Positions 2,288-63,130 of a stretch of 64,000 nucleotides of DNA are shown here, piece after piece. The translations under genes and the position numbers were made by a program. Below the pieces are notes generated by a model, which made no database searches, had not been told where the DNA came from, and saw nothing but the letters and a program-made list of their open reading frames with translations. How positions within the stretch are numbered: position 1 is the stretch's first letter; every line of letters starts with the position of its first letter. Source of the stretch: Arenicola marina. Its lineage: Eukaryota; Annelida; Polychaeta; Arenicolidae. The stretch spans positions 36,016,254-36,080,253 of the forward strand of contig OZ025260.1 of assembly GCA_964019135.1 (NCBI GenBank), written 5' to 3'.

Positions 2288-2562
2288 ATCGAGATGACTT
2301 GTGAGGGTTGCGGCACTGGCCAATGGCGAAGCGCCTTATATCGAGGTGACTTGTGAGGGTGGCGGCACTGACCAATGGCGAAGCGCGATATATCGAGGTG
2401 ACTTGTGAGGGTGGCGGCACTGACCAATGGCGAAGCGCGATATATCGAGGTGACTTGTCAGGGTGGCGGCACTGACCAATGGCGAAGCGCGATATATCGA
2501 GGTGACTTGTCAGGGTGGCGGCACTGACCAATGGCGAAGCGCGTTATATCGAGATAACTTGT
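2288..2562. repeat. 52-bp minisatellite, 5 copies, overlapping the GPCR stop codon
   Basis: Units of 52 bp (one of 54) recur with GACTTGT at 2,294, 2,348, 2,400, 2,452 and 2,504. The partial unit nearest the gene includes the last codons and the TAA of the GPCR on the minus strand (CAAGTTATCTCGATATAA). The array therefore amplified a segment spanning the end of the coding region and the start of the 3' UTR. The units carry a conserved CCAATGG-type core in all copies. Confidence 0.9.
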
Positions 2563-7439: not shown

Positions 7440-10400
7440 GACCACATGGTTGTAAGGTCACTGGGCTGTAAAGTAACTGCGTTGTAAGGTATAATGTCAC
7501 TGGATTGTAAAGTAACTGCGTTGTCAGGTCACTGGGGTGTAAGGTCATTGGGTGTTCAGGTCTCTGGGGTGTAAGGTCCCTGGGGTGTAAGGTCACTGGG
7601 TTGTAAAGTAACTGTTATCAGGTCACTGGGGTGTAAGGTCATTGGGTTGTAAAGTAACTGCGTTGTCAGGTCACTGGGGTGTAAGGTCACTGGGTTGTAA
7701 AGTAACTGTGTTATCAGGTCACTGGGGTGTAAGGTCATTGGGTTGTAAAGTAACTGCGTTGTCAGGTCACTGGGGTGTAAGGTCATTGGGTTGTAAAGTA
7801 ACTGCGTTGTCAGGTCACTGGGGTGTAAGGTCACTGGGTTGTAAAGTAACTGTGTTATCAGGTCACTGGGGTGTAAGGTCACTGGGTTGTAAAGTAACTG
7901 CGTTGTCAGGTCACTGGGGTGTAAGGTCACTGGATTGTAAAGTAACTGTGTTATCAGGTCACTGGGGTGTGAGTTCATTGGGTTGTAAAGTAACTGCGTT
8001 GTCAGGTCACTGGGGTGTAAGGTCACTGAGTTGTAAAGTAACTGTGTTATCAGGTCACTGGGGTGTGAGGTCACTGGGTTGTAAAGTAACTGTTATCAGG
8101 TCACTGGGGTGTAAGGTCACTGGGTTGTAAAGTAACTGCGTTGTCAGGTCACTGGGGTGTAAAGTCATTGGGTTGTAAAGTAACTGTTATCAGGTCACTG
8201 GGGTGTAAGGTCACTGGTTTGTAAAGTAACTGTGTTATCAGGTCACTGGGGTGTAAGGTCATTGGGTTGTAAAGTAACTGTTATCAGGTCACTGCGTTGT
8301 AAAGTAACTGCGTTGTCAGGTCACTGGGGTGTAAGGTCATTGGGTTGTAAAGTAACTGTTATCAGGTCACTGGGGTGTAAGGTCACTGGGTTGTAAAGTA
8401 ACTGCGTTGTCAGGTCACTGGGGTGTAAGGTCACTGGGTTGTAAAGTAACTGCGTTGTCAGGTCGCTGGGGTGTAAGGTCATTGGGTTGTAAAGTAACTG
8501 TGTTATCAGGTCACTGGGGTGTAAGGTCACTGGGTTGTAAAGTAACTTATCAGGTCACTGGGGTGTAAGGTCATTGGGTTGTAAAGTAACTGCGTTATCA
8601 GGTCACTGGGGTGTAAGGTCACTGGATTATAAAGTAACTGTTATCAGGTCACTGGGTGTACGGTCATTGAGTTGTAAAGTAACTGCGTTGTCAGGTCACT
8701 GGGGTGTAAGGTCATTGGGTTGTAAAGTAACTGTTATCAGATCACTGGGGTGTAAGGTCACTGGGTTGTAAAGTAACTGCGTTGTCAGGTCACTGGGGTG
8801 TAAGGTCACTGGGTTGTAAAGTAACTGTGTTATCAGGTCACTGGGGTGTAAGGTCACTGGGGTGTAAGGTCACTGGGTTGTAAAGTAACTGTTATCAGGT
8901 CACTGGGGTGTAAGGTCATTGGGTTGTAAAGTAACTGCGTTGTCAGGTCACTGGGGTGTAAGGTCATTGGGTTGTAAAGTAACTGTGTTATCAGGTCACT
9001 GGGGTGTAAGGTCATTGGGTTGTAAAGTAACTGTGTTATCAGGTCACTGGGGTGTAAGGTCATTGGGTTGTAAAGTAACTGTTATCAGGTCACTTGGGTG
9101 TAAGGTCACTGGGTTGTAAAGTAACTGTTATCAGGTCACTGGGGTGTAAGGTCATTGGGTTGTAAAGTAACTGCGTTGTCAGGTCACTGGGGTGTAAGGT
9201 CATTGGGTTGTAAAGTAACTGTGTTATCAGGTCACTGGGGTGTAAGGTCATTGGGTTGTAAAGTAACTGTGTTATCAGGTCACTGGGGTGTAAGGTCATT
9301 GGGTTGTAAAGTAACTGTTATCAGGTCACTTGGGTGTAAGGTCACTGGGTTGTAAAGTAACTGCGTTGTCAGGTCACTGGGGTGTAAGGTCACTGGGTTG
9401 TAAAGTAACTGCGTTGTCAGGTCACTGGAGTGTAAGGTCACTGGGTTGTATAGTAACTGTGTTATCAGGTCTCTGGGGTGTAAGGTCACTGGGGTGTAAG
9501 GTTACTGGGTTGTAAAGTAACTGTTATCAGGTCACTGGGGTGTAAGGTCATTGGGTTGTAAAGTAACTGTGTTATCAGGTCACTGGGGTGTAAGGTCATT
9601 GGGTTGTAAAGTAACTGTGTTATCAGGTCACTGGGGTGTAAGGTCATTGGGTTGTAAAGTAACTGTTATCAGGTCACTGGGGTGTAAGGTCATTGGGTTG
9701 TAAAGTAACTGCGTTGTCAGGTCGCTGGGGTGTAAGGTCATTGGGTTGTAAAGTAACTGTGTTATCAGGTCACTGGGGTGTAAGGTCACTGGGTTGTAAA
9801 GTAACTTATCAGGTCACTGGGGTGTAAGGTCATTGGGTTGTAAAGTAACTGCGTTATCAGGTCACTGGGGTGTAAGGTCACTGGATTATAAAGTAACTGT
9901 TATCAGGTCACTGGGTGTACGGTCATTGAGTTGTAAAGTAACTGCGTTGTCAGGTCACTGGGGTGTAAGGTCATTGGGTTGTAAAGTAACTGTTATCAGA
10001 TCACTGGGGTGTAAGGTCACTGGGTTGTAAAGTAACTGCGTTGTCAGGTCACTGGGGTGTAAGGTCACTGGGTTGTAAAGTAACTGTGTTATCAGGTCAC
10101 TGGGGTGTAAGGTCACTGGGGTGTAAGGTCACTGGGTTGTAAAGTAACTGTTATCAGGTCACTGGGGTGTAAGGTCATTGGGTTGTAAAGTAACTGCGTT
10201 GTCAGGTCACTGGGGTGTAAGGTCATTGGGTTGTAAAGTAACTGTGTTATCAGGTCACTGGGGTGTAAGGTCATTGGGTTGTAAAGTAACTGTGTTATCA
10301 GGTCACTGGGGTGTAAGGTCATTGGGTTGTAAAGTAACTGTTATCAGGTCACTTGGGTGTAAGGTCACTGGGTTGTAAAGTAACTGTTATCAGGTCACTG

Positions 10401-12610
10401 GGGTGTAAGGTCATTGGGTTGTAAAGTAACTGCGTTGTCAGGTCACTGGGGTGTAAGGTCATTGGGTTGTAAAGTAACTGTGTTATCAGGTCACTGGGGT
10501 GTAAGGTCATTGGGTTGTAAAGTAACTGTGTTATCAGGTCACTGGGGTGTAAGGTCATTGGGTTGTAAAGTAACTGTTATCAGGTCACTTGGGTGTAAGG
10601 TCACTGGGTTGTAAAGTAACTGCGTTGTCAGGTCACTGGGGTGTAAGGTCACTGGGTTGTAAAGTAACTGCGTTGTCAGGTCACTGGAGTGTAAGGTCAC
10701 TGGGTTGTATAGTAACTGTGTTATCAGGTCTCTGGGGTGTAAGGTCACTGGGGTGTAAGGTTACTGGGTTGTAAAGTAACTGTTATCAGGTCACTGGGGT
10801 GTAAGGTCATTGGGTTGTAAAGTAACTGTGTTATCAGGTCACTGGGGTGTAAGGTCATTGGGTTGTAAAGTAACTGTGTTATCAGGTCACTGGGGTGTAA
10901 GGTCATTGGGTTGTAAAGTAACTGTTATCAGGTCACTGGGGTGTAAGGTCACTGGGTTGTAAAGTAACTGCGTTGTCAGGTCACTGGGGTGTAAGGTCAC
11001 TGGGTTGTAAAATAACTGCGTTGTCAGGTCGCTGGGGTGTAAGGTCATTGGGTTGTAAAGTAACTGTGTTATCAGGTCACTGGGGTGTAAGGTCACTGGG
11101 TTGTAAAGTAACTTATCAGGTCACTGGGGTGTAAGGTCATTGGGTTGTAAAGTAACTGCGTTATCAGGTCACTGGGGTGTAAGGTCACTGGATTATAAAG
11201 TAACTGTTATCAGGTCACTGGGGTGTACGGTCATTGGGTTGTAAAGTAACTGCGTTGTCAGGTCACTGGGGTGTAAGGTCATTGGGTTGTAAAGTAACTG
11301 TTATCAGGTCACTGGGGTGTAAGGTCACTGGGTTGTAAAGTAACTGCGTTGTCAGGTCACTGGAGTGTAAGGTCACTGGGTTGTATAGTAACTGTGTTAT
11401 CAGGTCACTGGGGTGTAAGGTCACTGGGGTGTAAGGTCACTGGGTTGTAAAGTAACTGTTATCAGGTCACTGGGGTGTAAGGTCATTGGGTTGTAAAGTA
11501 ACTGTGTTATCAGGTCACTGGGGTGTAAGGTCATTGGGTTGTAAAGTAACTGTTATCAGGTCACTGGGGTGTAAGGTCATTGGGTTGTAAAGTAACTGTT
11601 ATCAGATCACTGGGGTGTAAGGTCACTGGGTTGTAAAGTAACTGCGTTGTCAGGTCACTGGGGTGTAAGGTCACTGGGTTATAAAGTAACTGCGTTGTCA
11701 GGTCGCTGGGGTGTAAGGTCATTGGGTTGTAAAGTAACTGTGTTATCAGGTCACTGGGGTGTAAGGTCACTGGGTTGTAAAGTAACTTATCAGGTCACTG
11801 GGGTGTAAGGTCATTGGGTTGTAAAGTAACTGCGTTATCAGGTCACTGGGGTGTAAGGTCACTGGATTATAAAGTAACTGTTATCAGGTCACTGGGGTGT
11901 ACGGTCATTGGGTTGTAAAGTAACTGCGTTGTCAGGTCACTGGGGTGTAAGGTCATTGGGTTGTAAAGTAACTGTTATCAGGTCACTGGGGTGTAAGGTG
12001 ACTGGGTTGTAAAGTAACTGCGTTGTCAGGTCACTGGGGTGTAAGGTCACTGGGTTGTAAAGTAACTGCGTTGTCAGGTCACTGGGGTGTAAGGTCATTG
12101 GGTTGTAAAGTAACTGTGTTATCAGGTCACTGGGGTGTAAGGTCACTGGGGTGTAAGGTCACTGGGTTGTAAAGTAACTGCGTTGTCAGGTCACTGGGGT
12201 GTAAGGTCACTGGGTTGTAAAGTAACTGTTATCAGGTCACTGGGGTGTACGGTCATTGGGTGTTCAGGTCTCTGGGGTGTAAGGTCACTAGGGTGTAAGG
12301 TCACTGGGTTGTAAAGTAACTGCGTTGTCAGGTCACTGGGGTGTAAGGTCATTGGGTTGTAAAGTAACTGTTATCAGGTCACTGGGGTGTAAGGTCATTG
12401 GGTGTTCAGGTCTCTGGGGTGTAAGGTCACTGGGGTGTAAGTTCACTGAATTGTACTGTTACTTGATTGTACGGTCACCGTGATATAAAGTCACAGTGAT
12501 ATAAGGTCACAGTAGTGTAACGTCACAGTGATATAAGGTCACAGTAGTGTAAGGTCACCGTGATATAAAGTCACATTGATGTAAGGTCACAGTGATGTAA
12601 GCTCACAGAG
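7440..12610. repeat. 48-bp minisatellite built of three 16-bp subunits, about 107 copies
   Basis: Each 48-bp unit is three related 16-mers: GTCACTGGGGTGTAAG, GTCATTGGGTTGTAAA and GTAACTGTGTTATCAG. Shorter 46-bp units with a 14-base third subunit are frequent. A block of about 1,259 bp is repeated: 8,574-9,515 matches 9,833-10,774 almost base for base, with a further partial copy near 11,100-11,900. From 12,440 to 12,610 the array decays into diverged 16-17-mers (GTCACAGTGATATAAG type), which may be the older edge. The array lies beyond the 3' end of the minus-strand lectin-like gene. The open frames on both strands are artefacts of a unit length divisible by three. Confidence 0.95.
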
Positions 12611-37945: not shown

Positions 37946-38221
37946 CGTACATAGTTTAGCTGGTTACGGGGCTTAGTCGACTGAAATCGCCCATTATTTA
38001 GCCGACTAAGGCCCGTAGCCGGCCAAACCGCGTTAGTGAAATCCGCCAACGGTGTCACCTTGGGCCGCAGCCAAGTGAGTTCGAGAACACCTGAAGTAAT
38101 TAAGCTGATGTGTATTACTTAATGTACAAATTCATGTGCGTCAGCATTTTCATCACTGAAATATATCTATGTGGCAGAGTTGAACATGATCTCGTTCCTG
38201 TTACCGGTGACATGGTCTTAC

Positions 38222-38542
38222 CGTTGACACACTCATATTCAATAGTTGTATGTTCCATGCGTGCTGTGGTGTGGTAACAGAAGACGCTCTCATTTCTGTC
38301 GTTGAGTGCGGAGAGGTTGTCACAGGCTAACCGGCCGTTACAACGATCGCTAACGTAGAGGTGGTACGGCGCTTCGACCGTCAGGCGTTTGGCGCAAAGC
38401 ACAGCTGCAGGATCAGTGTTGCACTTTGCTCCATTACTGTTACTGTTCCCGATGACAACCTTTGTGACGTGTATCCTCTTATTGCCCGTACAGTTGACGT
38501 CTCGAAATGGCTGGCCATTACACTGGGTGGACTTTAGTATTT
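38222..38542 (-). CDS. Second SUEL/galactose-lectin-like domain exon
   Basis: On the minus strand the exon runs from an acceptor (TTCCCATGGACAG) to donor AACG|GTAAGA, 321 bases, phase 1 in and out. It encodes about 106 residues with eight cysteines. The order VNCTGNKRIHV, a VxIG stretch, C...LCAKR, YVSDRCNGRLAC, and a final IEYECV matches the layout of SUEL-type lectin domains (rhamnose/galactose-binding, Gal_Lectin family). N-glycosylation sequons are NCT and NES. The domain in one symmetric 1-1 exon is typical of shuffled extracellular modules. Sugar binding is not proven: the YGR and DPC signature residues of strict family members are not clear. An alternative acceptor (TTTAACAG) upstream would be out of phase. 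Confidence 0.65.
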
Positions 38543-39196
38543 CTGTCCATGGGAAGAAACAAGGCACGGTTCTGTTAAATTATTGATATAGATTGTTCCA
38601 TGCGCGGGGACCAGTGTTAATAAGTTTAGTAATTAATTGTATTAATGGTGATAGACTTCGCATTCTAAGTCGTTATGCCCACATAAGCAATGTAGTTGTT
38701 GGATATATAGATGTCATGGCTTCAATCAATGCAGGATTACTGCATTGTGCTGTTATATCATATTAAAATAGACGAACTAATTCTATTTAATGTGTATGAG
38801 CTGAACATATGCTGTTTGCACGTATACCTAAAGTAGGAAAGAGTTAGTCTCAACATCACAAGCTGAAATTACGCATTTTGTTTCCAAAAATAAAACTTTT
38901 GATATTACTTTGTTATTAAATGACGCAATTATTAATAATATAGAAATCGCCAGGTGCGTAGCATCGTTGCATGTTCTAAGCGGTGGTAGATTGAAGCTAC
39001 GTTGCAATTTAGATGGCATGTATGCAACTGTATACAGGATGCTATGTGGCACATTTTATTTCCAAACTAATTCATGCAAACTACTATTTGGTTGTGCCAC
39101 CTACTTGTGTCAGGCGTGCGTACCGTCAGCCATGTACCTTGGACGTGATATGATGCAAATCGACAGTATGGTATATAGTATTTGCAGGTGACTTAC
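38543..39196 (-). other. Intron between the two lectin-like exons
   Basis: A 654-base AT-rich intron with GTAAGT donor at its 39,196 end. No array, RNA gene or further exon was seen in it. Confidence 0.6.
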
Positions 39197-39490
39197 TTCT
39201 GGTTGACGTCGAACATTGGTATTTTACTTCGAAGTGTATCTCCAAACAATCGCGAGGGATCTGCAAGGGCAGTCTGCAGTTTTGCTCGTAGGCACATTCC
39301 CGTGAGAGTCTAATGTAATATATTCCATCTTCTTCGATATGTTGTGTTATCACGCAATTCGTTGCAGACTTTGTCCTCACTGTCAAGATATCAACAGTTC
39401 CGTTGCCACACCTGATTGTCGGGATATGTTGTGAGGCGTGTGTTACGTTGAACATCTCCTTTATCGGGGATCCTTTTGTTGGCACTGCAC
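39197..39490 (-). CDS. First visible SUEL/galactose-lectin-like domain exon
   Basis: On the minus strand, acceptor TTTAAATTTTCAG and donor AGAA|GTAAGT bound 294 bases, phase 1 in and out. The exon encodes about 97 residues with six cysteines. IRCGNGTVDILTVR, YIRLSRECAYEQNCRLPLQ and FEVKYQC follow the same order as in the second domain. The exon therefore probably encodes another SUEL-like module, more diverged. Sequons NVT and NGT are present. With the downstream exons it forms an extracellular lectin-like region, stalk, one membrane helix and ITIM-like tail. The 5' part of the gene (signal peptide, possibly more domains) was not found; it should lie at higher coordinates or outside the window. 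Confidence 0.6.
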
Positions 39491-41860
39491 CTGAAAATTT
39501 AAACTGCGTTGTTAAGACTTCGACACATTGTTAAAACACATGTGTCCTAGACGTATTGTATGAGAAAGTTGTTTCCTGTCCACCAAGATTATCACTAGTT
39601 GTAACACCAGTCCTATGATTGATCCCTACTTTCATACTTTGTTTACGTTTTCTGTACTTTCCTACCGTTTTCACTCCTTTTTGTATCTTGACCCTACTTT
39701 TTCCAAGATCTGTCCAGATGACATGCCAGGCACCCATTGTTTGTAGGAAATCGGGTACATCAGGATCACGCCGCAAGTGTCTGATGCCCGATGACCTGTG
39801 ACACTGGGTACTGGCACAGAGTAGTTATAATACAAACTCTTGGCAGTCTGGGGTACTGGAATGTATGTTATCTGGCCTGGTCTCAAAAATATGTGATTCA
39901 TCCTGTGGTAAGGGTAATTGTCATATCGGTAAATATGCAGAAAAGGCGTAGCTAATTTTCATCAGCACGCCCAACGTTGTACTGGAGTCTCTACCTTTCC
40001 CTACTTTTTCCCCTACTTTGCTGGCACAAGTAGCTCTACTTTATCCCTATTTTTGTGAGGGGTCAATCACTAGGCCAGTAATGCCGCAATTGGCATCTGC
40101 AAATTGTACATAGCCTATCGGTCGGTGGCTTTGTTTTTGAGTGGGTGGAGCTGGAGGAATTTAGATCCATGAGGCTGTTTGCATCAATAACATTGAGGGA
40201 GACTATGTTGGGCAGAGATCCTGCCCGGGGTGGCAATATAGGATTGCTTCCCATACATAGCAGTCACCTCGTTGGCACGGTTAACCCATGCGTGCCTAAA
40301 GATGGTCTAAAACGCCAACTCAAATCATGTTGACGCAGTAACTAGAAAAGGCTGACGTTACATTGTGCTAAACTGCAGAGGGTGAGGGCCACCATGCCGT
40401 GGAGACTGGCCCAGTCTGTCATAGCGTCCTCGGGCTGCACTGCTGCTGTCCAAGCTGTTCTCTCCAGGCAGGAATAGCGCGCATGCACCACGCTCCGCTC
40501 TACGGGTTAAGTCCAGGCCGACTTGGTGAGAGTAACTTTGACGATTGATGACCTAAACGGATCTCTGACTCTGGGTGGCCCTGGTGCGCGTCGCGTTGTC
40601 TCGGAAACACCAGGTCACCATTCGTTTGATATTTTAGATTCACGTTGCTATGGATGCGTCCGTTCACCGCGTGTTTGATCGTGCCGATTCACGTTGTCAA
40701 GGAGAGAAACGTTTGTCCACCATGTTCGGTATGGTCGGATCGGCTCCGTATCGTTTTAGTCCATGTTTAGTCGACTGTCGCCGTACTTCTCTGTGAAACA
40801 CATGCGGCGCCGGCCCGGACTATACATAGGGGGTCGTAAAAACTGAGAGCGTGCGCCGCGCTGCGCCGTGCCTGCACCAAGCACCGGCCCCGCGTCATGA
40901 GCCGCAGGAATATAGACCACTTGCTATTATTATAAACTCCCTGTCTACCCCCCTCCACACCGCCACCACGACGCCTGACATCCGTTTTTTCATGGACCGA
41001 GACCCGAACTTGCCTCGGCGCTCGCACTTGGTCAACGAAAACAGGCCACCCCCCCCCCCCCCCTTCCGTGGAGGCCGGGCACGCCAATGGTAAAACGTCA
41101 CTATTAGTCATTGGTGTAGGGAATACTATTTCCGAGAAGATGGTTAATAATCGGTGATAAGTGGTCATTTTGACGTTATAAACCCAACATGACTAATACA
41201 CACATTTGCTGTGGGGTATATATATATATGGCTTAATAAATACGTCCCCACCCCCGCCCCCCCCCCCCCCCCCACCCCCGCCGTCATGAGGGAAGTCGTT
41301 TATAATGCAGCGTGCCGGATATATTATGTTGCAGTGTGTGCGTGTGTTTGCAACGGAGAGGGGCGTCTGTACGCCGCGATAAAGTCAACTTGTTCCGGTT
41401 TTCTTGGCAAATAATCTATTAAATGAAAGAAATAAACTTGGAATGATTTATAGCAAGCGCAAGCGAGCTCTTAAGGTAACATGCATGCATATTCAAAGTC
41501 CATTTCAAGCATAGGCTTAGGACTTTCATTTCGCGTAACAGCCCCCATGAGACTTTTTCGGATTCGGAGTAAATATCGGCTGTACATAAATATATTCAAG
41601 CAAAGAGAGGTCGAAGCATATTATGTCATGTCTTTAATAATTAAATCAGCTGCCCCACAAAATTAACGAATAAATTATTCAATGTTAACAATGGATGTAT
41701 GTATTTAAAATTAAAGTTCATTTATAAGCGATGCGCTAAATGTCTGTTGCCAAGCTCCAAGCAGAGCATATTGAGTAGTTGTGACGTCAAAATGTTATAA
41801 ACATGACGTCACAATGGGAGTTCCTAAGCAACCGAATGATTTGTCACAAGCACGTGCACG
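39491..41860. other. Non-coding region with unclassified repeat-like sequence
   Basis: No gene could be supported. From 39,600 to 40,060 the minus strand carries many AAAGTAGGG-type short motifs around a 76-codon open frame (39,671-39,901) with no family resemblance, perhaps a transposon remnant. C runs occur at 41,051 and 41,257. Missing 5' exons of the minus-strand lectin-like gene may lie here, but none was convincing. Confidence 0.4.
41782..41811. promoter_or_regulatory. Two perfect CRE palindromes
   Basis: TGACGTCA occurs at 41,782-41,789 and 41,804-41,811, within a larger imperfect inverted repeat beginning TTGTGACGTCA and ending TGACGTCACAA. Further copies are at 42,433 and 44,402. 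CREB/ATF proteins bind this octamer in animals. Which gene, if any, is controlled is unknown. Confidence 0.35.
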
Positions 41861-44674: not shown

Positions 44675-45051
44675 TCAGTTCTGGAAGTGGCTGCTAAGGA
44701 TTAGCTCTTGCTTGTCAGCCGGCGACACCTTGCGCGGTGGCTTGCGGCAGAAGACTCGCTTCCACATTTCTGCGTAGTGATCCCTAAATCCCTTGCTGAG
44801 GAAGGCATAGAGGAAGGGATCGGCCAGCGACTTGGCCCGGAACAGCCAGGCCAGGCCGTACCAGACCTCCACGCTGACGCAGGAGCGACAGATGGCGTAA
44901 AAGAACACCCCCACGGCCAGCGGCAGCTTGAATATGACGTAGAAGCCGACCAGCAGAGAGACGGTGACATAGGCCTTCCGGTCCTGGCGCTCTTTGCACT
45001 TGACCAGCCAGACGGCAGACGGCCGCCGGAGGGAGTTTTTCCTTGCGCTTA

Positions 45052-45084
<33 letters not shown>

Positions 45085-47224
45085 TGCCGCCGCCACCGCC
45101 ACCGCCGCTGGTAGCTCCCTTGCCGCTTTTGCTGCCCCGGGTTCCGGTGCCCATGGTCACCCCATCGCCGCCCCCACCGCCGCCGCCGCCACGGTCGTCC
45201 CCGCGTCGCTCCGTGGTCTCATCTGAAGACGTTTTCACCGCCCGTCGCCGCTTCTCGATCCGGTTCGTGTTGGAGAAGCCGGCGTCCTTGGTCGCACGGG
45301 CGCCGCCATGGTTACCCCCGTGACCGCCGCCGCCGCTCCCGTGGCCGCTGCTGCCGTGGCCGTCAGCGTGGGAGCCCTTGTGACCAGCGGTTCCGCCCCC
45401 ACTACCGGCCGCGTGGCTGCCCCCATGGCCGCCATTCCCGCCGCCGTGACCCCACGCGGCCGGCTCGTGCGACCGGAAGAACTCTGACGACTTCTTGGCG
45501 TAGGACAGCTTCCTCCGTGCCGCCGACTGCGACGGCTGGGTCGGCGGCGGCGGCGCTGGCGTCGGTAACCGCGGCAACTGGGTGCGGTGCGTGGTGTGGG
45601 GCGGGACCTGGCTGCCGTGGGACCCCGCCGGGCCGCCGCCACCGTCGCCACCGGCCCCGCCCCCGACAACCCCGACCCCTAACCCACCCCCGTTCGCGCC
45701 AACCTCCCCCCCGTCGCCGTCGACATCGACACCGACACCGTCGTCTTCTTCTCCGCTGTCCCGCGTCATATTTTCGGTGATGTCCTCGTGCTCGAGCTCA
45801 CGCTGGTGCGGGTCGTCCGACAGGGTGGAGCCGGGCCCGGGAGGCCCTGGCAGCACGAGCTCCTCCACGTCGCTGGCGAAGGAGGCCGAGCCGGAGGAGG
45901 ACAGCTTCCGCATCGTGACCGTCCCCTCCGTCGCCGCCGCCAACATCGAGGCGGGACCTTTGCCGAAATTGGCCGCCATTTCCGGGCTGTCGGGCTTGCT
46001 GAAGTTGAAGTATTCGGTTGTGAAGCCCTCCGGGAGCGAGATGGGGTCATTTAACTCGGAGACGCTGTCCCAGCGTTTCATGCCGCGCGACATGGAGTGC
46101 AGGGTTTGGGTCTCCAATGGGGCCTTGACCAGCACGTGCTCACGCCCCTTGGCCTCCTTCTCCAGCGCCCCGTCCCCATCGTGGGGGTGTTCCTCGTCGC
46201 TCACGGGGTGCACTCGGTTATCCACGTTGATACCGGCGACGATCTTCTTGGACTCCGGGAAGTACTCGTCGGTCGGGGAGATGCTGGCATCTGGCGATGA
46301 GCCAGACCGGCCGTTGGAGGTGTTCCGGGACGGGTTGTGGTCGCTAGGGGGAGCGAACAGCTGCAGGTCGCCCCAGATGGACTTGCTGGCCGTGGTCGTG
46401 TGGGCGTGGGTATTGCTCTCGCCGCCGCCACTCTTGTTGGCCTCCACTGCTCCCTGATGAGCGTGGGAGTGATGTGCCTGCTGCGGCATCCTCTCCCTCT
46501 CCCTCTCTCTCTCCCTCTCCTTCTCCCTCTCTCTCTCCCTCCCCCTCCCCTTCTCCGTCTCCCTCTCCCTGTCCCTCTCCCTGTCCCTCTCCCTCCCCCT
46601 CTCTGTCTCCCTCTCTCTCTCCTTGTTCCTCTCCCTCTCCCCTCTCTCCCTCTCCTCCCTCTCCCTCTCCCTCTCCCTCTCCCTGTCGCTCTCCCTCTCC
46701 TGGCCGATGCCGATGGACGAGGGGTCGGAGCGGGCACTGGCGGAGGACGTCCTGCCGGACAACAGGTGCGACCACGTGGGGCCGACCTCCTCCGGGTCCA
46801 GCTCCAGGCCCAGCGGCGTCTTCTTGGGCTTGGCATGCTGCGGCTGCTGCTGCTGTTGCTGCGGCTGCTGCTGCTGTTGCTGCGGCTGCGGCTGCTGCTG
46901 CTGTTGCTGCGGCTGCGGCTGCGGCTGCTGCTGCGGCTGCTGCTGCTGCTGCGGCTGCTGCTGCGGCTGCGGCTGCTGCTGCGGCTGCTGCTGCGGCTGC
47001 TGCTGCGGCTGCGGCTGCTGCTGCGGCTGCGGCTGCTGCTGCTGGGCCTCTTGCGCCGGGTTCCCCCAACACGTCTTGACCGAGGCCGCCGCGTCCAGCT
47101 CCTTGGCGATCACGGGAGCATCCCGAACCCCGGCCTCCTTCGTGTCCACCGGGGGGTCCAGCATCTCGAAGGGGTCCGACAGATCCGGCGGCCACGACTC
47201 CGGCACCTGAAGCGTGTCCATCAA

Positions 47225-47314
<90 letters not shown>

Positions 47315-48097
47315 ACCCGAGGATGTTGGCCCGCCGAGGTTCGGTTCCATATTGGCGATCATCTGACCCGTCAGCGACATGTGCACCAACTTGCCCATGA
47401 CGGAGCGCTGCTTGCTGCGCCGCCGCAAGTCGCCGTAGACCTTGGCGTTGAAGACGGCGATGAGAAAGAAGGGGATGATGATCTCGAGGATGACGGACAG
47501 CGGGGCGTAGATGAGGTCGTACACCGGGTGGCCCACCACGTAGGGGATGTCCACCAGCGAGGACGCGCAGGACGCCGTGCTGTTGGCCTGGTACTGGTAC
47601 CACTCGCCCACCACGATAAACGCCAGCTTGACCACGCAGGCCGCGCCCCACATGGATATGATGCGCAGCGCCGCCTTGCGGGGCGTCTCCTGTGCGTGGT
47701 AGCGCAGCGCGTCGTGCACCAACAGGTAGCGGTCATAGGACATGAGCGTCAGGCTGATGTGGGACGCCAGGATCGTGCAGTCGTCGATGATATTCCAGAA
47801 GATGCAGAAGGGCTCGCCGAAGGACCAGTAGCCGACCCACATGGTGATGGAGTAGACGGGCGTGACGAAGACGCCGATGAGGATGTCGGCCACGGCCAGG
47901 CTGAAGATGTAGTAGTTGCGCGTCACCCGCAGCCGGCCGTCGCGCACGAAGGCCGCCAGCACCATGGCGTTAGACACGATGAGGAGTACGTCTAGGATGT
48001 AAATACAGCTCACCGTCGCCGCCTCCCGGCTGTCCGTCAACACAGTCTTTGGCGCATGCGTCACGTTCGCCGTGGCGACCGCCTCCTCGAATATCAT
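44675..48097 (-). CDS. Class A amine-type GPCR, single exon, giant low-complexity third loop
   Basis: The frame is 1,140 residues from ATG 48,097 (A at -3); it stays open to a GTG at 48,202, so an upstream start or exon is possible. Visible are an NVT sequon in the N-terminus, TM1 (Asn43), TM2 (Asp71), TM3 (Cys98, Asp105 at 3.32, DRY 122-124), TM4 (Trp150), ECL2 Cys177, TM5 (Pro209), TM6 from about 1,042 and TM7 with DPFLY 1,093-1,097. The third loop spans about 222-1,038 (over 800 residues). It contains a tract of about 30 Gln, a Gln/Pro-rich stretch, an Arg-Glu repeat stretch and long Gly/His-rich runs. Two canonical residues differ: Trp6.48 is Lys1057 (FYVIFKLP) and Asn7.49 is Asp1093. TM2-TM3 resembles histamine H3/muscarinic-type receptors and the first GPCR of this window. 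The ligand is unknown. Confidence 0.88.
46489..46702. repeat. CTCTCC microsatellite coding for Arg-Glu repeats
   Basis: A CTCTCC/CTCCCT-type low-complexity tract lies inside the GPCR coding region. On the minus strand it encodes about 70 residues that are mainly alternating Arg and Glu, likely a charged helix in the third loop. It stays in frame. Confidence 0.9.
46840..47050. repeat. CAG/CCG microsatellite coding for Gln/Pro-rich segment
   Basis: Imperfect CAG repeats interrupted by CCG encode alternating poly-Gln and Gln-Pro on the minus strand, within the third loop of the second GPCR. It is likely length-polymorphic. Confidence 0.9.
47225..47315. repeat. CAG microsatellite coding for poly-Gln, about 30 residues
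   Basis: A nearly pure CAG tract (minus strand) with a few CAA codons encodes about 30 Gln shortly after TM5 in the second GPCR. Pure CAG tracts expand and contract, so allele length probably varies. Confidence 0.95.
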
Positions 48098-48292
48098 CTT
48101 TGAAAAGTGGGCGCGTACTCTTGTTGCGGATGTGTCGCACCACCACCGCGGCCTGCGTGTGCGTACGTACCACCAAGCAATTGGGGTTCTGAAAGATTGC
48201 ACCGAAAAGGGAATTGATAATCAAAACTCGTTCTCTCTGAGATATATCTGATCATGACTTTCGTCGTGTTTTTTCACCCGTCGATGTTGGTA
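48098..48292 (-). other. 5' flank of the second GPCR gene
   Basis: The GPCR frame stays open upstream of its ATG as far as 48,202, where an AG after CAATCTTTC could be an acceptor. No TATA box was evident. The start and promoter are unresolved. Confidence 0.35.
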
Positions 48293-54555: not shown

Positions 54556-54758
54556 GACGGAGATGGTGCTATTCCTTCAGGAGCGCTCGCCCACGGGATC
54601 CACCCGCCGGATCCCGGCCCTGGATGTCTTCAAGGCGATCCAAGGCAACGCCGGCCTGAAACAGCAACTGGGCACCCACCTGAGCGTGGAAAACATGCTC
54701 CCCAAGACAGGACTGAGCAAGGAACAACTCAAACAGTACCTGGACACGGCGCCCGCCG
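54556..54758 (+). CDS. NUP54: NUP54 internal exon (nucleoporin p54)
   Basis: The exon lies between acceptor CCTCTGCAG and donor GCCG|GTAAGT, 203 bases, phase 2 in and phase 1 out. It encodes 67 full codons including ERSPTGSTRRIPALDVFK and LPKTGLSKEQLKQYLDTAPA. The identification rests on the two downstream exons, which closely match the NUP54 C-terminal region, and on the correct exon order and phase. NUP54 forms the central-channel NUP62-NUP58-NUP54 complex of the nuclear pore. This exon belongs to the alpha/beta to helical region before the coiled coil. Its last 49 bases are the source of the following 59-bp array. The FG-repeat N-terminus and other 5' exons were not found in the window. 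Confidence 0.75.
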
Positions 54759-57700
54759 GTAAGTACACGGACTGAGCGAGGAACAACTCAAACAGTCCCT
54801 GGACGCGGCGCCCGCCGGTAAGTACGCGGACTGAGCGAGGAACAACTCAAACAGTCCCTGGACGCGGCGCCCGCCAGTAAGTACGCGGACTGAGCGAGGA
54901 ACAACTCAAACAGTACCTGGACACGGCGCCCGCCAGTAAGTACGCGGACTGAGCGAGGAACAACTCAAACAGTCCCTGGACGCGGCGCCCGCCGGTAAGT
55001 ACGCGGACTGAGCGAGGAACAACTCAAACAGTCCCTGGACACGGCGCCCGCCGGTAAGTACGCGGACTGAGCGAGGAACAACTCAAACAGTACCTAGACA
55101 CGGCGCCCGCCAGTAAGTACGCGGACTGAGCGAGGAACAACTCAAACAGTCCCTGGACACGGCGCCCGCCGGTAAGTACACGGACTGAGCAAGGAACAAC
55201 TCAAACAGTACCTGGGCACGGCGCCCGCCAGTAAGTACGCGGACTGAGCGAGGAACAACTCAAACAGTACCTGGACACGGCGCCCGCCGGTAAGTACACG
55301 GACTGAGCGAGAAACAACTCAAACAGTACCTAGACACGGCGCCCGCCAGTAAGTACGCGGACTGAGCGAGGAACAACTCAAACAGTCCCAGGACGCGGCG
55401 CCCGCCGGTAAGTACACGGACTGAGCAAGGAACAAGTCAAACAGTACCTGGGCACGGCGCCCGCCAGTAAGTACGCGGACTGAGCGAGGAACAACTCAAA
55501 CAGTACCTGGACACGGCGCCCGCCGGTAAGTACACGGACTGAGCGAGGAACAACTCAAACAGTCCCTGGACGCGGCGCCCGCCGGTAAGTACGCGGACTG
55601 AGCGAGGAACAACTCAAACAGTCCCTGGACACGGCGCCCGCCAGTAAGTACGCGGACTGAGCGAGGAACAACTCAAACAGTCCCTGGACGCGGCGCCCGC
55701 CGGTAAGTACACGGACTGAGCGAGGAACAACTCAAACAGTCCCTGGACACGGCGCCCGCCAGTAAGTACGCGGACTGAGCGAGGAACAACTCAAACAGTC
55801 CCTGGACGCGGCGCCCGCCGGTAAGTACGCGGACTGAGCGAGGAACAACTCAAACAGTCCCTGGACCCGGCGCCCGCCGGTAAGTACACGGACTGAGCGA
55901 GGAACAACTCAAACAGTACCTGGACACGGCGCCCGCCAGTAAGTACGCGGACTGAGCGAGGAACAACTCAAACAGTCCCTGGACGCGGCGCCCGCCGGTA
56001 AGTACACGGACTGAGCGAGGAACAACTCAAACAGTACCTGGACACGGCGCCCGCCGGTAAGTACACGGACTGAGCAAGGAACAACTCAAACAGTCCCTGG
56101 ACGCGGCGCCCGCCGGTAAGTACACGGACTGAGCGAGGAACAACTCAAACAGTACCTGGACACGGCGCCCGCCAGTAAGTACGCGGACTGAGCGAGGAAC
56201 AACTCAAACAGTACCTGGACACGGCGCCCGCCGGTAAGTACACGGACTGAGCAAGGAACAACTCAAACAGTCCCTGGACACGGCGCCCGCCAGTAAGTAC
56301 ACGGACTGAGCAAGGAACAACTCAAACAGTACCTGGACACGGCGCCCGCCTATAAGTACGCGGACTGAGCGAGGAACAACTCAAACAGTACCTGGACACG
56401 GCGCCCGCCGGTAAGTACACGGACTGAGCAAGGAACAACTCAAACAGTACCTGGACACGGCGCCCGCCAGTAAGTACGCGGACTGAGCAAGGAACAACTC
56501 AAACAGTACCTAGACACGGCGCCCGCCAGTAAGTACGCGGACTGAGCGAGGAACAACTCAAACAGTCCCAGGACGCGGCGCCCGCCGGTAAGTACACGGA
56601 CTGAGCAAGGAACAACTCAAACAGTACCTGGGAACGGCGCCCGCCGGTAAGTACGCGGACTGAGCAAGGAACAACTCAAACAGTCCCTGGACGCGGCGCC
56701 CGCCGGTAAATACACGGACTGAGCGAGGAACAACTCAAACAGTCCCTGGACACGGCGCCCGGCGGTAAGTACATGGACTGAGCGAGGAACAACTCAAACA
56801 GTCCCTGGACACGGCGCCCGCCGGTAAGTACACGGACTGAGCAAGGAACAACTCAAACAGTACCTGGACACGGCGCCCGCCAGTAAGTACGCGGACTGAG
56901 CGAGGAACAACTCAAACATTACCTGGACACGACGCCCGCCGGTAAGTACACGGACTGAGCGAGGAACAACACAAACAGTACCTGGACACGGCGCCCGCCG
57001 GTAAGTACACGGACTGAGCGAGGAACAACTCAAACAGTCCCTGGACGCGGCGCCCGCCGGTAAGTACACGGACTGAGCAAGGAACAACTCAAACAGTACC
57101 TAGACACGGCGCCCGCCAGTAAGTACGCGGACTGAGCGAGGAACAACTCAAACAGTCCCAGGACGCGGCGCCCGCCAGTAAGTACACGGACTGAGCAAGG
57201 AACAACTCAAACAGTACCTGGACACGGCGCCCGCCGGTAAGTACGCGAACTGAGCGAGGAACAACTCAAACAGTACCTGGACACGGCGCCCGCCGGTAAG
57301 TACACGGACTGAGCGAGGAACAACTCAAACAGTCCCTGGACACGGCGCCCGCCAGTAAGTACGCGGACTGAGCGAGGAACAACTCAAACAGTCCCTGGAC
57401 ACGGCGCCCGCCGGTAAGTACACGGACCGAGCGAGGAACAACTCAAGCAGTCCCTGGACGCGGCGCCCACCGGTAAGTACACGGACTGAGCGAGGAACAA
57501 CTCAAACAGTCCCTGGACACGGCGCCCGCCGGTACGTACATGGACTGAGCGAGGAACAACTCAAACAGTCCCTGGACGCGGCGCCCGCCGGTAAGTACAC
57601 GGACTGAGCGAGGAACAACTCAAACAGTCCCTGGACACGGCGCCCGCCGGTAAGTACACGGACTGAGCGAGGAACAACTCAAACAGTCCCTGGACGCGCC

Positions 57701-60068
57701 GCCCACCGGTAAGTACACGGACTGAGCGAGGAACAACTCAAACAGTCCCTGGACACGGCGCCCGCCGGTAAGTACATGGACTGAGCGAGGAACAACTCAA
57801 ACAGTCCCTGGACGCGGCGCCCGCCGGTAAGTACACGGACTGAGCGAGGAACAACTCAAACAGTACCTGGACACGGCGCCCGCCGGTAAGTACGCGGACT
57901 GAGCGAGGAACAACTCAAACATTCCCTGGACACGGCGCCCGCCGGTAAGTACACGGACTGAGCAAGGAACAACTCAAACAGTACCTGGACACGGCGCCCG
58001 CCAGTAAGTACGCGGACTGAGCGAGGAACAACTCAAACATTCCCTGGACACGGCGCCCGCCGGTAAGTACACGGACTGAGCGAGGAACAACTCAAACAGT
58101 ACCTGGACACGGCGCCCGCCAGTAAGTACGCGGACTGAGCAAGGAACAACTCAAACAGTACCTGGACACGGCGCCCGCCAGTAAGTACGCGGACTGAGCG
58201 AGGAACAACTCAAACATTCCCTGGACACGGCGCCCGCCGGTAAGTACGCGGACTGAGCGAGGAACAACTCAAACAGTACCTGGACACGGCGCCCGCCGGT
58301 AAGTACGCGGACTGAGCGAGGAACAACTCAAACAGTACCTGGACACGGCGCCCGCCAGTAAGTACGCGGACTGAGCGAGGAACAACTCAAACAGTACCTG
58401 GACACGGCGCCCGCCAGTAAGTACGCGGACTGAGCGAGGAACAACTCAAACAGTACCTGGACACGGCGCCCGCCAGTAAGTACGCGGACTGAGCGAGGAA
58501 CAACTCAAACATTCCCTGGACACGGCGCCCGCCGGTAAGTACACGGATTGAGCGAGGAACAACTCAAACCGTCCCTGGACACGGCGCCCGCCAGTAAGTA
58601 CGCGGACTGAGCGAGGAACAACTCAAACAGTACCTGGACACGGCGCCCGCCAGTAAGTACGCGGACTGAGCGAGGAACAACTCAAACATTCCCTGGACAC
58701 GGCGCCCGCCGGTAAGTACACGGATTGAGCGAGGAACAACTCAAACCGTCCCTGGACACGGCGCCCGCCAGTAAGTACACGGACTGAGCAAGGAACAACT
58801 CAAACAGTACCTGGACACGGCGCCCGCCGGTAAGTACACGGACTGAGCAAGGAACAACTCAAACAGTACCTGGACACGGCGCCCGCCAGTAAGTACGCGG
58901 ACTGAGCAAGGAACAACTCAAACCGTCCCTGGACACGGCGCCCGCCAGTAAGTACGCGGACTGAGCAAGGAACAACTCAAACAGTACCTGGACACGGCGC
59001 CCGCCAGTAAGTACGCGGACTGAGCAAGGAACAACTCAAACAGTCCCTGGACACGGCGCCCGCCGGTAAGTACACTGACTAAGCGAGGAACAACTCAAAC
59101 AGTACCTGGACACGGCGCCCGCCAGTAAGTACACTGACTGAGCAAGGAACAACTCAAACAGTACCTAGACACGGCGCCCGCCGGTAAGTACACGGACTGA
59201 GCGAGGAACAACTCAAACAGTACCTGGACACGGCGCCCGCCGGTAAGTACACGGACTGAGCGAGGAACAACTCAAACAGTACCTAGACACGGCGCCCGCC
59301 GGTAAGTACACGGACTGAGCGAGGAACAACTCAAACAGTACCTGGACACGGCGCCCGCCAGTAAGTACACGGACTGAGCGAGGAACAACTCAAACAGTCC
59401 CTGGACACGGCGCCCGCCAGTAAGTACACTGACTGAGCAAGGAACAACTCAAACAGTACCTAGACACGGCGCCCGCCGGTAAGTACACGGACTGAGTGAG
59501 GAACAACTCAAACAGTACCTGGACACGGCGCCCGCCGGTAAGTACACGGACTGAGCGAGGAACAACTCAAACAGTACCTGGACACGGCGCCCGCCAGTAA
59601 GTACACTGACTGAGCAAGGAACAACTCAAACAGTACCTGGACACGGCGCCCGCCGGTAGGTACACGGACTGAGCGAGGAACAACTCAAACAGTACCTGGA
59701 CACGGCGCCCGCCGGTAAGTACACGGACTGAGCGAGGAACAACTCAAACAGTACCTGGACACGGCGCCCGCCGGTAAGTACACGGACTGAGCGAGGAACA
59801 ACTCAAACAGTACCTGGACACGGCGCCCGCCGGTAAGTACACGGACTGAGCGAGGAACAACTCAAACAGTCCCTGGACGCGGCGCCCGCCAGTAAGTACA
59901 CTGACTGAGCAAGGAACAACTCAAACAGTACCTGGACACGGCGCCCGCCGGTAAGTACACGGACTGAGCGAGGAACAACTCAAACAGTACCTGGACACGG
60001 CGCCCGCCGGTAAGTACACGGACTGAGCAAGGAACAACTCAAACAGTCCCTGGACACGGCGCCCGCGA
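54710..60068. repeat. 59-bp array of duplicated exon end plus 5' splice site, about 91 copies
   Basis: Each unit is about 49 bases of the NUP54 exon end (starting GGACTGAGC, ending GCGCCCGCCG) plus the intron start GTAAGTACAC. The first unit is the real exon-intron junction at 54,758/54,759; the next donor is at 54,818, and the period continues to 60,068. Nearly all units keep GTAAGT, preceded by CCG or CCA. Rare changes are TATAAGT near 56,351, GTACGT near 57,532, GTAAAT near 56,706 and GTAGGT near 59,656; the last unit is degenerate (GAATTAGT). The unit length is not divisible by three, and reading on from the exon meets TGA five codons past the junction (GKYTD then stop). Downstream donors are therefore non-productive. 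Confidence 0.95.
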
Positions 60069-60126
60069 ATTAGTACATATTTAAATATTAACACCCATTG
60101 GTTAAAATCTTCGCCTTTCTTCTACA

Positions 60127-60129
<3 letters not shown>

Positions 60130-60161
<32 letters not shown>
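60130..60161. repeat. ATT trinucleotide microsatellite
   Basis: About ten ATT units in the NUP54 intron, next to the SINE that follows. Confidence 0.9.
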
Positions 60162-60162
<1 letters not shown>

Positions 60163-60169
60163 TGTATTA

Positions 60170-60385
60170 ACACTGGTGTAGTGGTTAGCACAGTAGACCA
60201 CAGATCAATAATTCCTGGGTTCTAATCCTCCCTTGTGCAGTGTTTGGCGGTGATTTGATTCCGGGCCCTGTACTTACCTTATCTAGAGCATGTTAGATCC
60301 ATTCACCCTCCATCGTCCCGAGAGGTTCCTTGGCCCAGTCTATACCCTGTGTGCACAAAAGCAGCCTAAGACTAAGACTAATTTC
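60170..60385 (+). mobile_element. tRNA-derived SINE at the end of a NUP54 intron
   Basis: The head reads TGGTGTAGTGGTTAGCAC (A box) and GGGTTCTAATCC (B box) at tRNA spacing, followed by a tRNA-unrelated body with ATCTAGAGCATGTT and TTCCTTGGCCCAG. It shares body motifs with 54,290-54,440. The end AGCCTAAGACTAAGACTAAT lies within 50 bases of the acceptor at 60,411 and offers good branch-point-like sequence. Confidence 0.6.
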
Positions 60386-60411
60386 CTTTCGCTTCCCTCT
60401 GTCTCCCGCAG

Positions 60412-60419
60412 GTATCGAC
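60412..60419 (+). CDS. NUP54: NUP54 exon start, cut by assembly gap
   Basis: A strong acceptor (pyrimidine tract, CTCCCGCAG) ends at 60,411. Eight bases of exon remain before the gap; in phase 1 they complete Gly and give Ile-Asp after the previous exon (APA-GID). The rest of this exon and the start of the next intron are missing. Confidence 0.55.
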
Positions 60420-60619
60420 NNNNNNNNNNNNNNNNNNNNNNNNNNNNNNNNNNNNNNNNNNNNNNNNNNNNNNNNNNNNNNNNNNNNNNNNNNNNNNNNN
60501 NNNNNNNNNNNNNNNNNNNNNNNNNNNNNNNNNNNNNNNNNNNNNNNNNNNNNNNNNNNNNNNNNNNNNNNNNNNNNNNNNNNNNNNNNNNNNNNNNNNN
60601 NNNNNNNNNNNNNNNNNNN
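60420..60619. other. Assembly gap, 200 N
   Basis: Exactly 200 N, probably a placeholder rather than a measured size. It removes most of one NUP54 exon and part of an intron. The short word TATCG flanks both sides. Confidence 0.99.
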
Positions 60620-60641: not shown

Positions 60642-60749
60642 ATAATCGCCTCGGACATTGCCCACCTACAGAGGAACCACACCGAGACACAATCCAAGAT
60701 GGCGGAGTACAAGCGGCGACACCTGGAGTTGGGTCACCGAGTGTTGCAG
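60642..60749 (+). CDS. NUP54: NUP54 exon, start of C-terminal coiled coil
   Basis: Acceptor CTTTTTGTAG and donor CAG|GTAAAA bound 108 bases, 36 codons, phase 0. It encodes DIAHLQRNHTETQSK then MAEYKRRHLELGHRVLQ. This closely matches the helical C-terminal region of animal NUP54, which pairs with NUP62 and NUP58 in the pore channel. It continues in frame into the exon at 62,997. Confidence 0.9.
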
Positions 60750-61096: not shown

Positions 61097-62965
61097 ATGA
61101 CGTTGAACAAGGACTGGCTGAGGCTGTAGGGACATAAGGACTGACTGAGGCTGTAGTGACACAAAGACTGCCTAAGGCTGTAGGGACACAAGGACTGACA
61201 GAGGCTGTAGTGACACAAGGACTGACTGAGGCTGTAGTGACACAAGGACTGACTGAGGCTGTAGTGACACAAGGACTGGCTGAGGCTGTAGTGACACAAG
61301 GACTGACTGAGGCTGTAGTGACACAAGGACTGACTGAAGCTGTAGTGACACAAGGACTGACTGAGGCTGTAGTGACACAAGGACTGACTGAGGCTGTAGT
61401 GACACAAGGACTGACTGAGGCCGTAGTGACACAAGGACTACTGAGGCTGTAAGGACACAAGGACTGACTGAGGCTGTAAGGACACAAGGACTGACTGAGG
61501 CTGTAGTGACACAAGGACTGACTGAGGCTGAAGGGACACAAGGACTGACTGAGGCTGTAGGGACACAAGGACTGACTGAGGCTGTAGGGACACAAGGACT
61601 GACTGAGGCTGTAGTGACACAAGGATTCGCTGAGGCTGTAGTGACACAAGGACGGACTGAGGCTGTTGTGACACAAGGACTGACTCAGGCTGTAGTGACA
61701 CAAGGACTGACTGAGGCTGTAGTGACACAAGGACTGACTGAGGCTGTAGTGACACAAGGACTGACTGAGGCTGTAGGGACACAAGAACTGACTGAGGCTG
61801 TAGTGACACAAGGACTGACTGAGGCTGTAGGGACACAAGAACTGACTGAGGCTGTAGTGACACAAGGACTGACTGAGGCTGTAGTGACACAAGGACTGAC
61901 TGAGGCTGTAGGGACACAAGAACTGACTGAGGCTGTAGGGACACAAGAACTGACTGAGGCTGTAGGGACACAAGAACTGACTGAGGCTGTAATGACACAA
62001 GAACTGACTGAGGCTGTAGTGACACAAGAACTGACTTAGGCTGTAGTGACACAAGGACTGACTTAGGCTGTAGTGGCACAAGGACTGACTGAGGCTGTAG
62101 TGACACAAGAACTGACTAAGGCTGTAGGGACACAAGGACTGACTGAGGCTGTAGTGACACAAGGACTGACTGAGGCTGTAGAGACACAAGAACTGACTGA
62201 GGCTGTAGGGACACAAGAACTGACTGAGGCTGTAGGGACACAAGAACTGACTGAGGCTGTAGGGACACAAGAACTGACTCAGGCTGTAGGGACACAAGGA
62301 CTGACTGAGGCTGTAGGGACACAAGGACTGACTGAGGCTGTAGTGACACAAGGACTGACTGAGGCTGTAGTGACACAAGGACTGACTGAGGCTGTAGTGA
62401 CACAAGGACTGACTGAGGCTGTAGTGACACAAGGACTGACTGAGGCTGTAGGGACACAAGAACTGACTGATGCTGTAGGGACACAAGAACTGAATGAGGC
62501 TGTAATGACACAAGGAGTGACTGAGGCTGTAGTGATACAAGGACTGACTGAGGCTGTAGGGGAACAAGAACTGACTGAGGCTGTAGGGACACAAGAACTG
62601 ACTCAGGCTGTAGGGACACAAGAACTGACTGAGGCTGTAGTGACACAAGAACTGACTGAGGCTGTAGGGACACAAGGACTGACTGAGGCTGTAATGACAC
62701 AAGGACTGACTGAGGCTGTAGTGACACAAGGGCTGACTGAGGCTGTAGTGACACAAGGACTGACTGAGGCTGTAGTGACACAATGACTGACTGAGGCTGT
62801 AGTGACACAAGGACTGACTGAGGCCGTAGTGACACAAGGACTGACTGAGGCTGTAGGGACACAAGGACTGATTGAGGCTGTAGTGACACAAGGACTGACT
62901 GAGGCTGTAGTGACACAGGGACTGACAGGCTGTAGTGACACAAGAACTGACTGAGACTGTAGTGA
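61097..62965. repeat. 27-bp minisatellite, about 69 copies, in a NUP54 intron
   Basis: The unit is GGACTGACTGAGGCTGTAG plus TGACACAA or GGACACAA, 27 bp. It runs to about 30 bases before the acceptor of the next exon. Because 27 is a multiple of three and the minus strand lacks stops, a 623-codon Ser/Leu/Cys-rich frame appears; it is an artefact. Each unit contains ACTGACTGA, which resembles a branch-point consensus. Confidence 0.95.
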
Positions 62966-62996
62966 CACAAGGAATGACGGGGTCTTGCTCTGACAG

Positions 62997-63116
62997 GTGA
63001 TGGTGAAGCAGGAGATTGCCAGGAAGACGGGGTACGCCATTCAGGCGGACGAGGAGCAGCTACGAACGCAACTAGAGGCCATTCAAGCCGAGCTGAACGC
63101 GCCCACCCGATTCAAG
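62997..63116 (+). CDS. NUP54: NUP54 exon, C-terminal helical region
   Basis: Acceptor CTCTGACAG and donor AAG|GTCAGT bound 120 bases, 40 codons, phase 0. It encodes VMVK, QEIARKTGYAIQADEEQLR and AELNAPTRFK. The KSGYAIQADEE-type block is the most conserved part of NUP54 across animals, so the family call is firm. The remaining 3' exons lie beyond the window. Confidence 0.95.
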
Positions 63117-63130
63117 GTCAGTCAAGGTCA
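63110..63130 (+). repeat. 10-bp duplication across the NUP54 5' splice site
   Basis: TCAAGGTCAG is followed at once by TCAAGGTCAA, so the exon-intron junction AAG|GTCA is present twice, ten bases apart. The first copy is the donor in frame with the family sequence. Confidence 0.7.

Follow-up and report, generated by a model that had tools for sequence, protein, structure and literature searches.

The stretch of DNA analysed here, referred to as the window, comprises 64,000 nucleotides of contig OZ025260.1 from Arenicola marina (assembly GCA_964019135.1, positions 36,016,254 to 36,080,253 of the forward strand). It carries part of the nuclear pore gene NUP54, in which the 5' splice site (donor) is repeated many times over at the start of each of two consecutive introns, with 34 copies in one intron and 91 in the next. 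The rows are minisatellites of 46-bp and 59-bp units that straddle exon-intron junctions. A preliminary description of this DNA, made from the letters alone, had recognized such an array in one NUP54 intron; that array stands, while the one at the start of the preceding intron (36-1579) had been overlooked.

NUP54 exons and gene identity

The NUP54 exons of the window are all on the plus strand. Positions 1-40 (VCVETVKGLPEDR) form the 3' end of a putative coding exon, delimited by tblastn co-linearity, which shares its split codon AG|G with the exon starting at 54556. The intron in between (41-54555, 54,515 bp) starts with the 46-bp junction array and holds further arrays and two minus-strand genes for G protein-coupled receptors (GPCRs). 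The coding exon at 54556-54758 (203 nt, RTEMVLFLQERSP...LDTAPAG) was identified by homology to a PDB chain and to animal NUP54. It is followed by an intron of 5,653 nt (54759-60411), with coordinates read from the sequence, 5,310 nt of which (94%) belong to the 59-bp array. The next exon is represented by its first nucleotides only (60412-60419, GTATCGAC..., frame PAG-ID), as it is interrupted by a run of exactly 200 N (60420-60619) that begins 8 nt inside the exon and resembles a scaffold gap. Two further exons lie at 60642-60749 (IIASDIAHLQ...RVLQ) and 62997-63116 (VMVKQEIARK...APTRFK). The N- and C-terminal exons of the gene would be beyond the window and one exon within the gap.

The name NUP54, already given to this gene in the preliminary description, is supported by the Pfam domain PF13874, by PDB chain 5ijn_F and by animal NUP54 proteins. 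The joined exons match the Nup54 domain PF13874 at 78.5 bits (cutoff 30.5), a match that covers only the two downstream exons. Taken alone, exon 62997-63116 scores 40.2 bits and exon 60642-60749 scores 27.5 bits, below the cutoff, while Pfam gives no Nup54 match for exon 54556-54758 by itself. Chain 5ijn_F of the PDB, labelled NUP54 and presumably human, matches the joined exons with E = 1.1e-37 and exon 54556-54758 alone with E = 2.5e-8. Comparison by tblastn of the window with 10 NUP54 proteins, out of 25 proteins retrieved, revealed four exons co-linear with animal NUP54. Nine of the 10 proteins (all but P0022) match positions 3-41 with residues that directly precede those matching exon 54556 (e.g. 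P0008 residues 293-305, then 305-372). These matches are individually weak (E 1.5-10), and it is their co-linearity, together with the in-frame split codon AG|G, that identifies positions 3-40 as the putative preceding NUP54 exon. The presence of the Nup54 domain and the co-linearity with animal NUP54 assign the gene to NUP54 at the sequence level.

The best window match to human NUP54 residues before 237 is no better than E = 2, a result that had prompted the idea of a truncated gene or pseudogene. This was rejected: positions 3-40 are read as the preceding exon, the exons read are open, and GT and AG are found at their splice sites. The array-bearing exon also matches two PDB chains called BURRH with E ~1e-7; these were set aside, the matches being made of many weak pieces with no stretch passing singly. 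A protein search also returned six short NUP54 fragments, one of them from Centruroides.

The top four relatives of the window NUP54 fragment come from annelids and nemerteans. A 13-row tree was built from the window sequence and 12 of 18 matches (P0012, P0014, P0016, P0020, P0024 and P0025 were left out). The window NUP54 pairs in it with Paralvinella palmiformis with support 97/95, whereas support for grouping this pair with the other two annelids is only 81/83. Branchiostoma is not represented among the 12 of 18 NUP54 matches placed in the tree, and amphioxus was rejected as the host. Judged from this protein, the host is probably an annelid.

The junction-spanning arrays

The exon-intron junction spanned by the 59-bp array can be positioned through the protein. 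The translation of exon 54556-54758 runs TEMVLF...PAG and the following exon (G|GT ATC GAC) adds GID. Across 54758|54759 the window reads LDTAPA-G-ID, the PDB chain 5ijn_F reads NPPAGVD and Paralvinella reads NPPAGID, and P(A/S)GID is found at the same place in four annelid or nemertean proteins (P0008, P0009, P0010 and P0013). This homology, unbroken up to the final exon codon and beyond it, argues that the true junction is 54758|54759, within copy 1 of the array, and that the next exon begins at 60412. By the same protein continuity with NUP54 relatives, the GTAAGT of copy 1 (54759-54764) would be the authentic donor, hereafter donor 1.

The 59-bp minisatellite extends over 54710-60068 on the plus strand. 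Tandem Repeats Finder (TRF) reports 54710-60066 with period 59, 90.8 copies, 94% matches and 0% indels, and in-register cutting yields 91 head-to-tail units without insertion or deletion, of which unit 91 (60020-60078) is degenerate. The roughly 90 tandem junction copies described earlier are thereby recovered; they had been placed at 54556-60068, a span that is right for the array end and wrong for its start, since 54556 is the start of the exon and the array runs from 54710. Each unit combines 49 nt of exon end with 10 nt of intron start and reads GGACTGAGC(A/G)AGGAACAACTCAAACAGT(A/C)CCTGGAC(A/G)CGGCGCCCGCC(G/A) + GTAAGTAC(A/G)C. Copy 1 holds the actual exon end and intron start and copies 2-91 are intronic; unit cutting and protein homology agree with the earlier statement that the unit crosses a true NUP54 junction. 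The donor GT is present in 89 of the 91 units and GTAAGT in 86. The claim that nearly all copies keep a consensus donor holds for this hexamer but not for the base at -1, which is G in 55 of the 91 units: GGTAAGT is found in 52 units and the weaker AGTAAGT in 34.

Reading through the junction 54758|54759 meets an in-frame TGA 14 nt beyond the intron start (54773-54775), the stop that the preliminary description had counted five codons past the first junction. Use of a later donor would therefore give a truncated, probably unstable message, which supports the proposal that protein is made from donor 1 only.

Because the 200-N gap begins 352 bp past the array, it might be asked if the assembly inflated a few copies to 91. 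The array is free of N and contains 49 distinct unit types among its 91 copies, with no run of at least four identical units that recurs, unlike an assembly loop. A second array with the same anatomy is also present. An assembly artefact is very improbable.

This second array is a 46-bp minisatellite across the preceding NUP54 exon-intron junction (36-1579, plus strand), delimited by TRF and by its donor contexts, with 34 donor copies including the true one. Its unit has a short exonic share, 5 nt (GACAG), followed by 41 nt of intron (GTAGGC...). GT is retained in 32 of the 34 donors and AG|GTAGGC in 23. Read-through of the true donor of this array meets an immediate TAG. A block duplication is seen within it, donor copies 908-1090 recurring as 1274-1456.

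Tandem minisatellite-like repeats over an exon-intron boundary, with copies of the splice site, were named mirages in amphioxus. The preliminary description had mentioned them, and they do exist in print: the accessible parts of two reports (PMC3087553, PMC3902484) describe them in Adh3, then in globins (BflGb6/BflGb9), troponin C and PGBD5. The authors report or suggest there that regular splicing is undisturbed, and length instability between haplotypes or cells is reported for the BflGb6 and Adh3 mirages. In both NUP54 arrays the tandem unit takes in sequence from either side of a real exon-intron boundary, and the copies carry splice signals. The NUP54 arrays belong to the mirages because they have this defining structure. 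The cephalochordate setting of the published cases is not treated as part of the definition; the NUP54 studied here groups with an annelid.

The NUP54 arrays differ from the amphioxus mirages in being found in an annelid-grouping gene, in having 91 and 34 copies and in occupying two consecutive introns of one gene. In the accessible parts of the same reports, BflGb6 has 6 and 3 units in two haplotypes, and two PGBD5 sequences have 2 or 7 units of 60 bp and 3 or 6 units of 108 bp (PMC3087553, PMC3902484). Human variable internal tandem repeats at exon-intron boundaries, described in segmental duplications, are likewise minisatellite expansions. According to the report on them (PMC2812944), their unit has a mean of 30 bp repeated 4 times, they can alter intron structure, and alternative transcripts keep the repeat in most intron cases. 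The NUP54 array differs in that it spans thousands of bases and its retention would bring in a stop. Large intronic arrays were also described in an annelid, the first introns of earthworm metallothionein genes having minisatellites with mean monomers of 178 and 181 bp (PMC12783039). These lie within the first intron, and the accessible part of that report describes no junction-spanning or donor-bearing units. In a comparison that covers BflGb6, PGBD5 and the human boundary repeats, as given in those parts of the sources, with the Adh3 copy numbers outside it, the NUP54 mirage is extreme in copy number. Its scale, its doubling in one gene and its phylum look new among the matches listed in the open-access literature. 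The annelid placement matters because the junction-spanning arrays found in print are those of amphioxus, plus the short human cases.

Variation and strength of the extra donors

The preliminary description had suggested that the extra donors might act as a sink for U1 small nuclear ribonucleoprotein (U1), protect from premature polyadenylation or provide a regulated switch to non-productive mRNA. It had also named the comparison of substitutions in the donor and in the rest of the unit as the test for selection. This comparison was carried out on copies 1-90 of the 59-bp array, the degenerate copy 91 being excluded, and on the 29 of 34 units of the 46-bp array that are exactly 46 bp long. In the 59-bp array 6 singletons are found in the 810 cells of the donor window (-3..+6) and 12 in the 4500 cells elsewhere (p = 0.045), which would indicate that donor positions vary more, not less. 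No 9-nt window of the unit exceeds the 6 singletons of the donor window. When GTAAGT only is considered, there are 4 singletons in 6 positions and 14 in the other 53 (p = 0.10). In the 46-bp array the variable positions are 5 of 9 in the donor and 3 of 37 in the rest (p = 0.004), and both arrays combined give p = 0.002 for the donor-position excess. In neither array are donor positions more constrained than the other positions of the unit; they vary as much or more, and selection maintaining the extra donors is not supported.

The excess of changes at the donor, together with the -1 G>A change found in 34 of 90 copies, is what would be expected if selection silenced the decoys, donor-weakening mutations being favoured so that donor positions evolve faster than the rest of the unit. 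However, the p value of the 59-bp array becomes 0.16 when two neighbouring changes in unit 28 are taken as one event, and the changes of the 46-bp array were partly copied by its block duplication. The -1 G>A change may be mutational because this G sits in a CpG (CCGG). Most decoys are also still at full strength (51/90 and 21/33), and silencing by selection is unlikely.

Coding use of the intronic copies was rejected. Of the variant types in the exon-derived part of the 59-bp unit, 19 are nonsynonymous and 5 synonymous, where the full set of random single changes gives 110:34; the variant types fall 10/8/6 at codon positions 1/2/3. The intronic copies are therefore not constrained to protein sequence. 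There is also no gradient of donor strength along the 59-bp array, A(-1) donors numbering 12 of 29 in copies 2-30, 8 of 30 in copies 31-60 and 14 of 31 in copies 61-91.

Pairing of the donors with the U1 5' end was predicted. The true donor of the 59-bp array has a predicted pairing of -10.7 kcal/mol and the A(-1) form -7.0 kcal/mol. Counting the true donor itself and copy 2, 52 of the 91 copies are predicted to match the true donor in strength. Of the 33 other donors of the 46-bp array, 21 are predicted equal to or stronger than the first, and the copy at 494 is predicted clearly stronger (-13.2 kcal/mol against -10.7 kcal/mol for the true donor). Since many decoys equal the true donor in predicted strength, strength cannot single it out, and its selector would be largely outside the unit. 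At unit positions 10, 29 and 37 the common variants of 54710-60068 give the unit a predicted RNA fold more stable than that of the exon copy.

The plus strand of the window has 90 GTAAGT matches, 86 inside the 5.3-kb array and 4 outside, and the minus strand has 6. Such a density of sites could keep the transcript from being cleaved and polyadenylated too early during its synthesis (telescripting) or titrate U1 locally. Yet the hexamers AATAAA, ATTAAA, AGTAAA and TATAAA are all absent from intron 54759-60411, the only one scanned (the 54.5-kb intron was outside the scan), which leaves protection from premature polyadenylation without a visible target there. The donors are not conserved either, and A at -1 lowers the predicted pairing in 34 of the 91 copies. 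The free variation of donor positions and the lack of coding bias, strength gradient and polyadenylation hexamers speak against the U1 sink, against telescripting and against a conserved poison switch, though individual donors may still be used. A role in U1 titration or transcript shielding is extremely improbable.

Regulated non-productive splicing would exploit the decoys differently: use of a downstream donor would retain at least 59 nt with a stop, the NUP54 mRNA would decay and its level would be tuned. Splicing at any downstream donor would indeed keep a stop in frame (the TGA lying 14 nt beyond the 59-bp donor, or the TAG immediately past the 46-bp donor) and, as predicted above, many equal the true donor in strength. 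Few decoys would be enough for this purpose, however, and 90 near-identical copies without a strength gradient resemble homogenisation. The decoy donors lack conservation, and mirages were suggested not to disturb splicing in the accessible part of the amphioxus report (PMC3087553). A switch to non-productive mRNA is quite unlikely.

Tandem arrays of the window and origin of the junction arrays

Twelve selected tandem arrays make up 65% of the window. A 24-kb array within the 54.5-kb intron (13945-37940) has 59-bp units and higher periods of 118 and 177 bp; its unit looks unrelated by eye to the NUP54 junction unit despite the common 59-bp period. Another array of this intron (7448-12606) has units near GGTTGTAAGGTCACTG and could supply further GTAAGG sites that resemble weak donors. 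A 27-bp minisatellite of 69 copies (61107-62978) fills most of another NUP54 intron and ends 18 bp before exon 62997, without spanning the junction.

The two GPCR genes (2544-4886 and 44675-48220, both on the minus strand) are single open reading frames (ORFs) of the rhodopsin family (PF00001), antisense within the 54.5-kb intron. The ORF at 44675-48220 has long polyglutamine and arginine/glutamate-rich tracts. A protein search yielded one GPCR, P0007, with 65% identity across 29% of the query. The minus-strand ORFs 38115-38579 and 39126-39530 are lectin-like by eye, have no Pfam match at E 0.001, and no identity is claimed for them.

The explanation preferred here, with a probability of roughly 0.8, is that two junction-straddling stretches of NUP54 were duplicated, expanded as minisatellites and were tolerated since splicing takes the first donor. 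Stretches across the exon end and intron start would have been tandemly duplicated in an annelid NUP54, and then expanded and homogenised as ordinary minisatellites to reach 34 units of 46 bp and 91 units of 59 bp. As every duplicated stretch brought its own donor, the copy adjoining the intact exon would remain the working splice site and every later copy would turn intronic. The intron would lengthen in this way without protein change. The extra donors would be passed over mainly by position, donor 1 being favoured because it is the nearest to the acceptor of its 203-nt exon and the first transcribed. Exon definition and co-transcriptional recognition are general principles of splicing. We infer both the duplication history and the positional mechanism.

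Several points weigh against this explanation. We infer from protein homology that the RNA is spliced at donor 1. Accessibility is also predicted to be lower for the decoys than for the true donor in 63 of 89 cases in the 59-bp array and in 30 of 33 in the 46-bp array, every donor being predicted mostly closed. The array variants A29C, A10G and A37G rank 4, 8 and 19 of 177 for stabilising the predicted RNA fold of the unit; the other two of the five commonest variants rank 85 and 120 of 177, and the set has p = 0.03, a nominal value that, like the others, is optimistic since several RNA-structure tests were made. RNA structure might thus help to conceal decoy donors. Finally, two of about 10 larger intronic arrays (small ones left out) begin at a donor, for which a uniform model set up post hoc gives P = 0.0004, and the origin of minisatellites at donors may not be random.

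Two causes fit arrays that start at donors: either a duplication across a donor is tolerated, the protein being preserved by the first copy, or minisatellites arise preferentially at donors. A third possible junction duplication, at donor 63116|63117, is a 10-bp two-copy repeat (63112-63130) whose score of 9 is not clearly beyond chance, this score being reached by 59 of 1500 random points and 1 of 47 AG|GT points. No junction duplication was seen at donor 60749 (score 4) or at three acceptors (4, 5 and 5). The broader reading, tentative and with the odds against it, is that the 5' ends of introns in this worm lineage are preferred birthplaces of minisatellites and that introns grow by recopying their own donor. 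Anchoring by the first copy would make this growth tolerable, and variants would possibly fold away or weaken the decoys. If this were true, mirages would be a general and recurrent route of intron growth in animals, not an oddity of amphioxus.

Under the preferred explanation, tolerated duplication with choice of the first donor, the 59-bp array amounts to a natural competition in which a single exon is followed, at multiples of 59 nt, by ~50 donors with the predicted U1 pairing of the true donor. As donor 1 alone would give protein, the array is an unusually large natural test of positional donor choice. The paired arrays lie in a gene from outside the chordates and suggest that repeats across junctions contribute to intron growth more widely, and on a larger scale, than the few short amphioxus examples had shown.

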